Assembly: GCA_026710545.1 (NCBI GenBank)
Contig: JAPOQU010000102.1
Coordinates: 1-64,000 of the forward strand
Length of the DNA: 64,000 nucleotides
Reading direction: 5' to 3'
DNA from: Gammaproteobacteria bacterium
GTDB lineage: Bacteria; Pseudomonadota; Gammaproteobacteria; Eutrophobiales; Eutrophobiaceae
This document shows positions 3,494 through 45,757 of the stretch, one piece after another. Both the position numbers and the translations under genes were made by a program. The stretch's first letter is position 1. Every line of letters starts with the position of its first letter. The notes under the pieces are model-generated. The model was given only the letters and a program-made list of their open reading frames with translations, did not search any database and was not told the DNA's origin.

Positions 3494-5506
3494 ATGTCGA
3501 CATTGGACATCGCCTTGATTTGCAGTGTTATCGCCATCCTGTATGGCATCTTCTCAGTACGCTGGATACTGGCCCAGCCCGAAGGAAACGAACGCATGCG
3601 GGAAATCGCCGCGGCCATACAACAGGGCGCATCCGCATACCTCAACCGGCAATACGCGACCATCGGCGTGGTCGGCGTGATCCTGTTCGTCGTGCTGGGA
3701 TTCCTGCTTGACTGGTACACGGGGTTCGGGTTTCTGATCGGCGCCGTGTTCTCCGGCGCCGCCGGGTACATAGGTATGAATATATCCGTACGCGCCAACC
3801 TGCGTACCGCCGAAGCCGCCAACCGCGGCATGAATACCGCGTTGACGGTTGCCTTCAGGGGCGGCGCGATAACGGGCCTGCTGGTCGTCGGTCTGGGCCT
3901 GCTGGGCGTAGCCGGCTATTACGCCTTGCTGCAAAGCCTGGGGGCAGACAGCGACACCATCCTCCACGCCCTCATCGGTCTGGGTTTCGGCGGCTCCCTG
4001 ATCTCCATTTTCGCCCGCTTGGGCGGCGGCATCTTCACCAAGGGCGCCGACGTCGGCGCCGACCTGGTGGGCAAGGTAGAAGCCGGCATCCCCGAGGACG
4101 ACCCGCGCAATCCCGCGGTGATCGCGGACAACGTCGGTGATAACGTGGGCGATTGCGCCGGCATGGCGGCCGACCTGTTTGAAACCTACGCGGTGACCGT
4201 GATAGCGACCATGTTGCTGGGCAGCCTGGTAGTCCCGGGAAGTGAAAACGCCATTCTCTACCCGCTGGCGCTGGGCGGCGCTTCCATCGTTGCCTCGGTC
4301 ATCGGCTGTTTCTTTGTCAGGTCCGGAGAGGGCGGCACCATCATGGGCGCCCTGTACAAGGGCTTGATCGTCGCCGGGGTGCTGGCCGCCGCACTGTTTT
4401 ACCCGGTCACGAACAATATGATGGCTGCTATTCCCGGGATGACCGCCGGGGCGTTATACGGTTGCGCACTGATCGGCCTGGCGCTGACCGCGGCCATGGT
4501 CTGGATAACCGAATATTACACCGGCACCGACTACGCGCCGGTCAAACACATCGCCGCCGCATCTGAAACCGGCCACGCCACCAATATCATCGCCGGCATC
4601 GGCGTGTCCATGAAAGCAACCGCCCTGCCGGTGCTGGCCGTCTGCGCCAGTATCTGGGGCGCTTATGAACTGTCCGGGCTGTACGGCATCGCCATTGCGG
4701 CCACGTCGATGCTGTCGATGACCGGCATCATCGTCGCGCTGGACGCGTTCGGACCCATTACCGATAATGCCGGCGGCATTGCGGAAATGGCGGACCTTGA
4801 TGAAAAGATCCGCAATATCACCGACCCGCTGGACGCGGTAGGGAATACCACCAAGGCCGTTACCAAGGGTTACGCCATCGGCTCCGCCGGGCTGGCCGCC
4901 CTGGTGTTGTTCGGCGACTATACCCATGCCCTGGGCCAGGCCGGCATTCACGTGGAGTTTTCGCTGTCGGACCCGCTGGTGATCATCGGCCTGTTTATCG
5001 GCGGCCTGGTGCCTTTCCTGTTCGGCGCAATGGCTATGGAAGCGGTGGGCCGCGCGGCCGGTTCGGTGGTGATAGAGGTACGGCGGCAGTTCAGGGAGAT
5101 CCCGGGTATCATGGACGGGACCGGCAAACCGGATTATTCCCGCGCCGTTGACCTGCTGACCAAATCGGCCATCAAGGAAATGATCATCCCTTCCCTGTTG
5201 CCGGTGCTGGTCCCGGTCATCGTCGGCAAGGTGCTGGGGCCCGTAGCCCTCGGCGGGCTGTTGCTGGGTACGATTGTGACCGGCCTGTTCGTCGCCATAT
5301 CCATGACCACCGGCGGCGGCGCCTGGGACAACGCCAAGAAATACATCGAGGACGGCAACCTGGGCGGCAAGGGGTCGGAAGCCCACAAGGCCGCAGTCAC
5401 GGGTGATACGGTAGGCGATCCCTACAAGGACACCGCCGGTCCGGCAGTCAACCCGCTCATCAAGATCATCAACATCGTTGCCCTGTTGATCGTGCCGTTG
5501 CTTTGA
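3494..5506 (+). CDS. hppA: Membrane proton-translocating pyrophosphatase, potassium-independent type
   Basis: The 670-residue product is a polytopic membrane protein of the H+-PPase family, which hydrolyses PPi to pump protons. The substrate-binding signature is present ([16 protein letters not shown] at 181-196; DNVGDNVGD starting near 212). The diagnostic position after GNTT is Lys (GNTTKA, K454), which in this family marks potassium-independent proton pumps; potassium-dependent members have Ala there. GGGAG lies about 8 nt before the ATG. A 149-nt gap separates it from the phosphofructokinase gene. Length is usual for bacterial members (about 660-700). Confidence 0.96.
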
Positions 5507-13270: not shown

Positions 13271-13312
13271 ATACAACGGCAAGTGGTATTGCGGGCCGTT
13301 CTGCCGCCGGCA

Positions 13313-13588
13313 TTACTCTGCCGGCTTTCCGGCTGTCAGAATATCCCTGTTTTTCTCCACCAGGCCAGGGCCAATACCCCGGATATTGGTCAATTCCTGC
13401 ACGGTTTTAAAGCCGCCGTTGCGTTCCCGGTAAGTGATGATCTTCTGGGCGAAGCTCTCACCGACCCCGCTCAGGGTCATCAGGGTTTCCTTGTCGGCCG
13501 TATTGATATCGACCTCGCCGGCGGCGAGAAGCGTCATGGGCATGCCGAGAAAAATGAGGATTATAAGTTTGCGTAATATATGCATCAT
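13313..13588 (-). CDS. comEA: ComEA-like helix-hairpin-helix DNA-binding protein
   Basis: The 91-residue product has a signal peptide (about 1-23, ending LLAAG) and a tandem helix-hairpin-helix domain: VDINTADKETLMTLSGVGESFAQKIITYRERNGG, then NIRGIGPGLVEKNRDIL. The family comprises short periplasmic DNA-binding proteins; the Gram-negative ones bind incoming DNA during natural transformation. It stands alone, first gene left of the proposed origin interval. A role in uptake is inferred; comF, another competence-linked gene, is 5 kb away. Confidence 0.88.
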   Translation of the reverse strand: MMHILRKLIILIFLGMPMTLLAAGEVDINTADKETLMTLSGVGESFAQKIITYRERNGGFKTVQELTNIRGIGPGLVEKNRDILTAGKPAE

Positions 13589-13896
13589 GGTCTCCTTCTG
13601 TTTGATTGTTTATGTTCCGGGTTCCTGAACCACGATCTGAAGCTATACAATAACGGCGGGCCATACAAGACAAAGTTGGCCTGGTTTGTGGGAAAAGTCA
13701 CAATTTGCGTCATTTTCCCGGCTGTTGCCTGAACGCACAGCCTGCAACCATCTGCGCCGTCACAAATCTGCGCGATCCGCACCGGGAATATTCTTTCCCC
13801 GCACAACCGTATAGACCCTGGACTCCTTTGGAGTATGCTATACTTTTACGCCATACCTGAGGCGTCAATCGAATGTTATTAAATCGTCAAGCAAGC

Positions 13897-13905
13897 TGTG
13901 GACAA
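13897..13905 (-). promoter_or_regulatory. Near-consensus DnaA box
   Basis: TGTGGACAA on the plus strand reads TTGTCCACA on the minus strand, one mismatch from TTATNCACA. It is 36 nt from a perfect box, in opposite orientation, with an AT-rich stretch in between. Confidence 0.5.
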
Positions 13906-13941
13906 CCTATTTAAAATAAAAGCCTCCCCGGCAAGAGAAAC

Positions 13942-13950
13942 TTATCCACA
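13942..13950 (+). promoter_or_regulatory. Perfect DnaA box
   Basis: TTATCCACA matches the consensus TTATNCACA exactly. It lies 115 nt upstream of dnaN, immediately before a nine-codon mini-ORF. Confidence 0.6.
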
Positions 13951-13972
13951 GCAAATCAAAAGGAAACAACCA

Positions 13973-14002
13973 ATGAACGAATCCAAAATCAAGCGCAACT
14001 GA
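13973..14002 (+). other. Nine-codon mini-ORF in front of dnaN
   Basis: ATG at 13973 opens MNESKIKRN and stops at TGA 14000-14002. An AAAGGA-type ribosome-binding site lies about 9 nt before the ATG. It follows the DnaA boxes directly, where dnaA would normally begin. It could be a leader peptide, a remnant of a lost dnaA, or chance; the sequence does not decide. Confidence 0.25.
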
Positions 14003-14042
14003 TTGAAAAGTAAGAAGAAAATAAGAGTCAACAGAGTTAACC

Positions 14043-14051
14043 TGGTATAAT
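14043..14051 (+). promoter_or_regulatory. Extended -10 promoter of dnaN
   Basis: TGGTATAAT is a perfect extended -10 element. It ends only 13 nt before the dnaN ATG, and no Shine-Dalgarno sequence is visible between them, so a transcript from it would have almost no leader. No good -35 is present 17 nt upstream. Confidence 0.5.
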
Positions 14052-14064
14052 AACAGCTATAACT

Positions 14065-15165
14065 ATGAATCTAAATATTAATAACAGTATTTTATTCCCT
14101 GCGTTAAGCAAGGTTGCGGGTGTGGTCGACCCCAGACCAACCCTGGCGATCCTTGCCAACGTTCTTCTCAATGTCGGCCCTGACGGCTTGCGCCTGACGG
14201 CAACGGACATGGAGGTCGAACTCACCGCTTCGATTGATGGAAACTTTGGCCCTGCAGGAGACATCACAATCCCCGCCCGTAAATTGTTCGATATCTGCAG
14301 GGCGCTTCCCGAGACCGCGGAAATATCTCTAGTCGTTGACGGCGAACGGGTCAACGTCAGCTCGGAACGGAGCCGTTTTTCATTACTGTCATTGCCTGCC
14401 CAGGAATTTCCCCTGGTGGAACCGGCAGAGACCGAAGTGCAGCTCTCCATTTCCCAGAACGTGTTTAAATCCCTGCTTGAGCAAACGGCTTTTGCCATGG
14501 CCAAGCAGGACGTGCGTTACTACCTGAACGGTGTTTTGCTGGAAGCACAGCAGGACCGGCTGCGCGCGGTTGCTACGGACGGGCACCGGCTTGCACTTTG
14601 TGATGTCGACGTTACCATCCCCACGGAAGTCTCAAGACAGTTGATACTTCCCAGGAAGGGCGTGCAGGAACTGTTGCGGTTGGTCGGAGAGAGCGACGCC
14701 GAGATGCAAATCGTCATGAGCAAAAACCAGGTGCGCATTACAGTGGACAATTATGTATTCACCAGTAAATTGATTGACGGAAAATACCCGGACTATAACC
14801 GGGTAATACCGGAACTCTCCGAAAATGTAGTGCTGGCTGAGCGGGAACCGCTCAAGCAAAGCCTGAGCCGCGCCTCTATCCTTTCAAGCGACAAATACCG
14901 GGGCGTTAAGATCACCCTGGAACAGAACAAGCTGCGGGCACTTGTCCATAGCCCTGACCAGGAACAGGCGGAAGACGAGATCGATGTGGAGTATGCGGGA
15001 GATAACCTGGAGGTGGGATTCAATGTGACCTACCTGCATGATGCCGTCAATATCATCCAGACCGACAAGGTCAGGCTTTCCGTGTCCTCGCCGAAGAGCG
15101 GTTGTCTGGTATTGCCCGAGGATGGGGGGAAATGTAAATATATCGTTATGCCGTTGTTGCTGTAA
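14065..15165 (+). CDS. dnaN: DNA polymerase III beta subunit (sliding clamp) DnaN
   Basis: The 366-residue product equals the usual beta-clamp length. Typical stretches include ATDGHRLALCDV, the KGVQELLRL segment and the C-terminus ending CKYIVMPLLL. It holds polymerase III on DNA. It is followed by recF (start about 41 nt downstream) and gyrB, the standard origin-side order, but dnaA, usually directly upstream, is absent. The ATG has no obvious Shine-Dalgarno sequence. Confidence 0.97.
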   Translation: MNLNINNSILFPALSKVAGVVDPRPTLAILANVLLNVGPDGLRLTATDMEVELTASIDGNFGPAGDITIPARKLFDICRALPETAEISLVVDGERVNVSSERSRFSLLSLPAQEFPLVEPAETEVQLSISQNVFKSLLEQTAFAMAKQDVRYYLNGVLLEAQQDRLRAVATDGHRLALCDVDVTIPTEVSRQLILPRKGVQELLRLVGESDAEMQIVMSKNQVRITVDNYVFTSKLIDGKYPDYNRVIPELSENVVLAEREPLKQSLSRASILSSDKYRGVKITLEQNKLRALVHSPDQEQAEDEIDVEYAGDNLEVGFNVTYLHDAVNIIQTDKVRLSVSSPKSGCLVLPEDGGKCKYIVMPLLL

Positions 15166-15206
15166 AAGATTGAGCAACCCGTGCAATACCAGTGTCTGTG
15201 CAGCCG

Positions 15207-16265
15207 ATGCACATAGAATGGCTGCAAGTCAGAAACGTCCGTAACCTGTCCAACCTGCGGCTCGAGCCTGATCCGTCGCTCAATATCATCTCCGGACCAA
15301 ACGGCAGCGGTAAAACGGCGCTGCTGGAGGCTATTCATATCCTGAGCCGTTGCCGTTCTTTCCGTACCTCCGGAATTAACCGCGTCATCCGCCACCAGCA
15401 ACAGGAATTGCAGATCAGCGCCGGCTTGCGTTTACCCGATCAGTCTCTGGTTGTCACGGGGGTTGAACGCAGCAGGGGCACGATAACTATTCGATATAAC
15501 AACCGCACCATACGTAAGGTATCCGAGCAGGCGGCCCAGGTTCCCGTCATCACTATCACGCCGGATATCCACGGAATGGTTTCCGGCAGTCCCGTGTTTC
15601 GAAGGCGATGGCTGGACTGGGCGATGTTTCACGTGAAACCAAGCTATATCGAGACCTGGAGGGATTACCATAAGGCACTGAAAAACCGGAACAACCTGCT
15701 ACGGAAGAACAATGTTGAGCAGTTGGCAACCTGGGAACAGGCAATGTGGTCGTCGGCGAGGACAATCAATGCGCAGAGGAATGAGTTCATTGCGGAAATA
15801 GCGGAAGAAATGGCAAACACCTCGCAACTGCTTGACATACCACAGGCGGAACTCGTATATGAGCGCGGCTGGCAATCCGGCATTGACCTGGACCGGTTTC
15901 TGTCGGAACACCGGAAAGGGGACCTGGAACGAGGTATGACCCGTCATGGCATACACCGGAGCGATATTGTGATTCGCCAGGATGAGAGAGAGATTGGTCA
16001 CTTTTATTCACGCGGCCAAATAAAACTGTGTATCATTGCCCTGTGTCTGGCCCAGGATCGCGTTTTCAGGCGCAGGACAGGACGTTCCCCGATCATCCTG
16101 GTAGACGATTTGCAGGCTGAACTGGACATGACCGGCCAGCGCCACGTCGTTGAGGTTCTGGCGGGACAGGGAGTCCAGGTGTTTATCACGACAACAGGAA
16201 AGATCCCGTCTCACAAGCAGATACAAAAAAGGATGTTTCACGTGAAACAAGGGTGTCTGATTTAG
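15207..16265 (+). CDS. recF: DNA replication and repair protein RecF
   Basis: The 352-residue product is an SMC-like ATPase that loads RecA at gaps. It has Walker A GPNGSGKT at 30-37, a YSRGQIKLCIIAL signature and Walker B IILVDDLQAELD. I start at ATG 15207 (MHIEWLQVRNVRNL) because this aligns with family N-termini; GTG at 15192 in the same frame would add five residues. Two GTTTCACGTGAAAC palindromes are built into the coding sequence and read as MFHVKP (140-145) and MFHVKQ (343-348), the latter just four residues before the stop. Confidence 0.95.
   Translation: MHIEWLQVRNVRNLSNLRLEPDPSLNIISGPNGSGKTALLEAIHILSRCRSFRTSGINRVIRHQQQELQISAGLRLPDQSLVVTGVERSRGTITIRYNNRTIRKVSEQAAQVPVITITPDIHGMVSGSPVFRRRWLDWAMFHVKPSYIETWRDYHKALKNRNNLLRKNNVEQLATWEQAMWSSARTINAQRNEFIAEIAEEMANTSQLLDIPQAELVYERGWQSGIDLDRFLSEHRKGDLERGMTRHGIHRSDIVIRQDEREIGHFYSRGQIKLCIIALCLAQDRVFRRRTGRSPIILVDDLQAELDMTGQRHVVEVLAGQGVQVFITTTGKIPSHKQIQKRMFHVKQGCLI
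15625..15640. promoter_or_regulatory. parS-type ParB binding site inside recF
   Basis: TGTTTCACGTGAAACC differs from the perfect 16-bp palindrome TGTTTCACGTGAAACA by its last base. That palindrome matches the widely conserved bacterial parS consensus recognised by ParB for chromosome segregation. parS sites cluster near origins, which fits the neighbouring dnaN and DnaA boxes. Confidence 0.85.
16234..16249. promoter_or_regulatory. Perfect parS site at the 3' end of recF
   Basis: TGTTTCACGTGAAACA is a perfect 16-bp palindrome that matches the conserved parS consensus. It lies 609 nt from the first site. It encodes MFHVKQ in the RecF tail, where the protein is least constrained, suggesting that the DNA site is what is kept. 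Confidence 0.9.
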
Positions 16266-16390: not shown

Positions 16391-18811
<2,421 letters not shown>

Positions 18812-45733: not shown

Positions 45734-45757
45734 GGGGACGGATTTAAATCCGTCCCC
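45734..45757. repeat. Palindromic intergenic element GGGGACGGATTT / AAATCCGTCCCC
   Basis: A perfect 24-bp palindrome with arms at 45734-45745 and 45746-45757, located between the convergent receptor and yaaA genes. Both its outer GGGGAC and GTCCCC and its setting match the element at 32136, with changed central bases. Confidence 0.7.

Follow-up and report, generated by a model that had tools for sequence, protein, structure and literature searches.

Two predicted parS sites embedded in recF of a gammaproteobacterium and conserved at the same codon positions across the class

We identified within the recF gene of Gammaproteobacteria bacterium two palindromes that are predicted, with a probability of about 95%, to be chromosomal parS sites and the centromere of this bacterium. 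The host gene (15192-16265, plus strand; a 357-amino acid ORF scoring 329 bits against TIGR00611, cut-off 172) sits in the 64-kb window, the whole stretch of DNA that was analysed, between dnaN upstream (14065-15165, plus strand; TIGR00663) and gyrB downstream (16412-18811, plus strand; TIGR01059). Site 1 (TGTTTCACGTGAAACC, 15625-15640) spans recF codons 145-150 and encodes MFHVKP; site 2 (TGTTTCACGTGAAACA, 16234-16249) spans codons 348-353, among the ten C-terminal residues of RecF, and encodes MFHVKQ. Neither site is assigned a strand. Their cores are exact copies of the 14-mer GTTTCACGTGAAAC (15626-15639 and 16235-16248), both in frame and spaced 609 bp apart. The 16-bp parS consensus TGTTYCACGTGRAACA is matched by the whole of site 2, a perfect palindrome, and by the core of site 1, which is perfect over 14 bp and keeps 15 of the 16 positions of the full palindrome. 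An initial annotation of this DNA had claimed the two palindromes, the perfection of the second, the peptides that they encode and their fit to the ParB consensus; the palindromes and the reading frame were confirmed, with exact GTTTCACGTGAAAC cores and a 357-residue product, and the assignment to parS is supported by sequence match, uniqueness and comparison with other genomes.

The meaning of the recF palindromes rests on their specific sequence and not on their being palindromic. Four perfect 16-bp palindromes were found in the window where about one is expected, which makes palindromicity as such uninformative as evidence. The window also contains two perfect 18-bp palindromes elsewhere, at 4043-4060 and 45737-45754. 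When up to two mismatches were allowed, GTTTCACGTGAAAC matched the window twice, both times exactly, against 0.14 matches expected from shuffles. Across the whole genome (4,425,347 bases in 129 contigs, 100% complete), the recF pair accounted for every match with at most one mismatch, and the nine additional matches with two mismatches are best regarded as background, because a reversed control pattern also returned nine. The genome count suggested in the initial annotation thus showed that the 14-mer is not scattered, the 4.43 Mb containing it exactly twice, both times in recF and clustered near the origin. The slight over-representation of perfect 14- and 16-bp palindromes in the window could favor a chance occurrence of a 14-bp palindrome twice in one gene, yet this specific 14-mer is expected far less than once per genome and the same two recF positions are occupied across the class, so that coincidence is exceedingly improbable.

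The probable origin region was placed at 13589-14064 (no strand assigned) from a sign change in GC skew and an exact DnaA box. The skew turns from negative to positive at about 14 kb of the window, and the DnaA box (TTATCCACA, 13942-13950) falls inside the 475-bp gap that precedes dnaN; a single box is not above chance in number, and its position at the skew switch is consistent with an origin. The region preceding dnaN (13300-14065 of the window) holds a comEA-like ORF on the opposite strand, and farther upstream is a long minus-strand ORF that reads, by eye from its translation, as leuS. With an assembly in 129 contigs and no dnaA adjoining dnaN in the window, proximity to oriC was judged from the local skew, box and genes, and the skew switch, the DnaA box and the dnaN-recF-gyrB array support it for the predicted parS sites. 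The earlier proposal that the sites were placed in this locus to keep them close to oriC therefore stood as far as proximity is concerned, whereas the purpose ascribed to the placement stays interpretive, if compatible with the competence zone described in Pseudomonas aeruginosa (PMC5098823).

A cognate chromosomal ParA and ParB are both encoded in this genome. We found one ParB, at a single chromosomal parA-parB locus on contig C8 (L203); parB follows an ORF for a ParA-type ATPase, which is itself preceded by an RsmG-like ORF, both ORFs being recognized by eye from their translations. The specificity residues (R173 and G201) and DNA-contacting residues (S172, N178 and R204) of this ParB are all of the parS type (numbering after PMC7383237). 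The related palindrome NBS is bound by Noc, a ParB paralogue with specificity residues Q173/K179/K184/R201 (PMC7383237). NBS carries A1 and C6 (PMC7383237), whereas the recF sites carry G1 and A6 and are accompanied by a ParB with the parS-type R173 and G201. A Noc/NBS reading was rejected on account of these two bases and of the ParB residues, all of them parS-type. By analogy with the ParABS family and with experiments in P. aeruginosa, we infer that ParB binds the two recF sites and that they serve in chromosome segregation in this uncultured organism. The single ParB would nucleate on both sites, load and then spread as a CTP-dependent clamp, and ParA would move the ParB complexes so that segregation begins with the origin region.

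The presence of parS within recF is not new, for it is already known from P. aeruginosa, whose parS1 and parS2 lie within the gene (PMC5521831). ChIP-seq demonstrated ParB binding in vivo to parS1-4 of that species and an origin-linked competence zone (PMC5098823), one of these four sites is necessary and sufficient for segregation (PMC4368675), and ParB binding is sensitive to the CACGTG core (PMC4368675). Like the pair described here, parS1 and parS2 (TGTTCCACGTGGAACC and TGTTCCACGTGGAACA) are two parS sites in recF near oriC (PMC5098823, PMC5521831), and in both organisms site 1 ends in C and site 2 in A. The half-sites differ, being GTTTCAC here and GTTCCAC in P. aeruginosa, and the latter also has parS3 and parS4 nearby plus six weaker sites, whereas we found the recF pair only. 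Pseudomonas saliphila (L257) carries both sites as well, at recF offsets 425 and 1058. The Bacillus subtilis consensus TGTTNCACGTGAAACA, bound by a ParB/Spo0J-family protein, is the same palindrome (PMC7022226), but it occurs as ten parS sites, eight of them in the ori domain (PMC7022226), rather than as two in one gene. A literature search, in a scope that excludes the parS survey of Livny et al. (2007), returned statements on parS in recF for P. aeruginosa only, and no paper stating that the pair is conserved class-wide, that its sites change jointly or that they are linked to ParB residue 204.

Comparative analyses indicate that the pair of predicted parS sites in recF is ancient and conserved at two codon positions across the Gammaproteobacteria. 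Among 58 relatives we recovered 14 exact copies of GTTTCACGTGAAAC in 12 genomes, all 14 inside recF. For a wider search we used GTTYCACGTGRAAC, a fourfold degenerate palindrome expected 0.015 times per Mb. It was present in 159 of 185 genomes sampled class-wide and occurred exactly twice in 112. In the 149 of these genomes for which a recF locus was retrieved, 239 of 294 palindromes were inside the recF ORF and nine were just past its stop codon; 88 of the 149 genomes carried exactly two palindromes, both in recF. Alignment of 175 RecF proteins placed the palindromes at the same two codon positions, with GTTYCACGTGRAAC at both positions in 126 of the genes, at one in 33 and at neither in 16. 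The recF placement of parS is, thus, common and not obligatory (16 of 175 genes have neither canonical site). The named-locus set was picked with patterns containing the site-1 motif, which biases its site-1 frequencies, and these were left out of the counts. In seven genomes with one site lost (L174, L134, L129, L141, L075, L079 and L137), a replacement palindrome lies 4-32 bp past the recF stop, which suggests a turnover that keeps two sites per genome. The strength of positional conservation also means that parS in draft genomes could be found by checking two recF codon positions. Outside recF, one genome whose recF sites are gone carries a canonical GTTTCACGTGAAAC separated by 4 bp from a variant GTTTCATATGAAAC (G083:C2:65081-65112), and a 2.6-Mb genome without a recF match (G153) carries twelve GTTYCACGTGRAAC palindromes, far over the usual two.

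Conservation of RecF as a protein offers a different explanation for the palindromes, as a by-product that would arise if FHV[E/K] were needed by the protein and its codons happened to be palindromic. In its favor, a 35-sequence RecF alignment has 30 invariant columns, which include the F, H and V of both sites, and an FHxE-like motif is retained at site 1 in Enterobacterales. Synonymous codons could encode the same residues, yet CAC GTG RAA is used at 286 of 297 xFHV[EK] sites, where codon use in these genes predicts 19.7 (relatedness of the genomes ignored), and the last codon is invariably GAA for Glu (242 of 242) or AAA for Lys (55 of 55), never GAG or AAG. Because of this excess, the constraint lies on the DNA, and protein-only conservation was ruled out as the cause of the palindromes. 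The same codon counts answer the comparison of relatives' RecF proposed in the initial annotation, for the codons that make the palindrome are kept. Further evidence against a protein requirement comes from the replacement palindromes beyond the recF stop, which are outside the protein altogether, and from the sampled Enterobacterales, whose site 1 reads FHNEP in codons that vary freely among synonyms (CAT or CAC, GAA or GAG). The solved RecF entries 5z67-5z69, which we take to be from Caldanaerobacter, align without an FHVE motif at site 1. A by-product of RecF conservation is therefore very unlikely, and the FHV[E/K] motif appears to be mostly imposed by the DNA. As parS sites, the palindromes would have been fixed by DNA selection at two recF codon positions since early in the Gammaproteobacteria; they would lie inside recF because that selection held them there, and RecF would for that reason have an F-H-V-E/K motif imposed on it at each site. 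Such a centromere would constrain the sequence of a DNA-repair protein across a whole bacterial class, and the parS DNA beneath would account for invariant residues of gammaproteobacterial RecF that are puzzling without it.

In the sampled lineages without ParB, the sites have decayed. Seven of eight sampled Enterobacterales genomes gave no match to TIGR00180 and the eighth, an Escherichia coli, gave a weak one only; E. coli is stated to have no ParB/Noc homologue (Jalal et al., PMC7383237). In these genomes site 1 reads FHNEP or similar and site 2 has decayed, as in Rouxiella (GTTCCGCGTGGAAC), Xenorhabdus (GTTTCGCGTAGAAC) and Kluyvera (GTTTAACGTGGAAA). The two best parS matches in recF of E. 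coli K-12 (L229:3149-4222) coincide exactly with the two homologous positions and have 5 and 4 mismatches, and decayed remnants of both sites were found in recF of seven further loci (L273, L293, L299, L302, L304, L305 and L308; e.g., GTTTACCGTGGAAA and GTTCCGCGTGGAAC). Such remnants are consistent with loss of ParABS, leaving in the relatives of E. coli what look like fossil centromeres. Outside this order, a 1.0-Mb genome (G208) has no ParB and degenerate recF sites, and a member of the same genus (G063) has a ParB and two intact recF sites. Conservation at the DNA level and loss together with ParB were, hence, both observed, in the codon test, in the Enterobacterales and in G208.

This covariation also bears on whether the palindromes belong to some other palindrome-binding protein, such as a regulator of the dnaN-recF-gyrB operon. 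The palindromes do lie within the operon, and a repeated palindrome could act as an operator. However, the 16-mer is the consensus of ParB and not of Noc (PMC7383237), the equivalent sites of P. aeruginosa are bound by ParB in vivo (PMC5098823), loss of the sites tracks loss of ParB in the lineages checked, and altered sites accompany a change at a ParB residue that contacts DNA. We consider it highly improbable that a different protein owns the sites, and we retain their identification as predicted parS.

In some genomes the two sites are altered as a pair. Related changes affect both recF sites in six genomes from different families. Four of these carry an identical altered 14-mer at both sites (GTTTCATATGAAAC in G133, GTTCCACATGGAAC in G060, GTTCCACGTAGAAC in G201 and GTTCCATGTGGAAC in G215); in G039 the centers CACATG and CATGTG are mutual reverse complements, and in G067 the two sites, GTTCTACGTAGAAC and GTTCCACGTAGAAC, are both of the GTTC[C/T]ACGTAGAAC type. 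The same type recurs in a seventh genome, G278, with GTTCCACGTAGAAC at recF site 1 and GTTCTACGTAGAAC a short way downstream of the gene. Genome scans with the variant patterns returned only the two recF sites in G039, G060, G067, G201 and G215; in G133 they returned two GTTTTATGTAAAAC matches besides the recF pair. Canonical sites are present in G052, which is congeneric with G201.

We compared the ParB proteins at the residues that Jalal et al. list as contacting parS (PMC7383237). The three discovery genomes with a site of the CACGTA type, the C-to-T/G-to-A change, all have Lys at residue 204 (G046, G201 and G067), as do two of 102 other genomes, one of them G052 (Fisher 5e-5, not corrected for relatedness); elsewhere the residue is Arg, which contacts parS. 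Both new genomes with CACGTA-type sites also have Lys204 (L240/G220 and G278), as does one more primary ParB among the other new genomes (G287). Lys204 is found, in addition, in G060 and at L277, L278 and L290, with CACATG or CATGTG sites, and it may mark relaxed or shifted ParB specificity in general. Its link to CACGTA-type sites is a post hoc hypothesis with a small validation. For centers changed to CATATG, CACATG or CATGTG, a specific ParB change was sought and set aside, as there was no consistent substitution: K171L and S172A were seen once each, and both positions are also changed in ParBs with canonical sites. We give even odds to a scenario in which the recF pair and ParB evolve together as one unit, R204K permitting or following the altered centromere and the pair preserving a natural record of the change. 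Natural parS variants and candidate compensating changes in ParB would make the evolution of ParB-parS specificity testable, and the parS-like sequences that bear on the question of R204K and the TACGTA half-site are TGTTCCACGTGGAACA, TGTTCCACGTAGAACA and TGTTCTACGTAGAACA. The ParB loci that go with the concerted variant pairs are L219, L205, L216, L224, L225, L226, L402 and L432.
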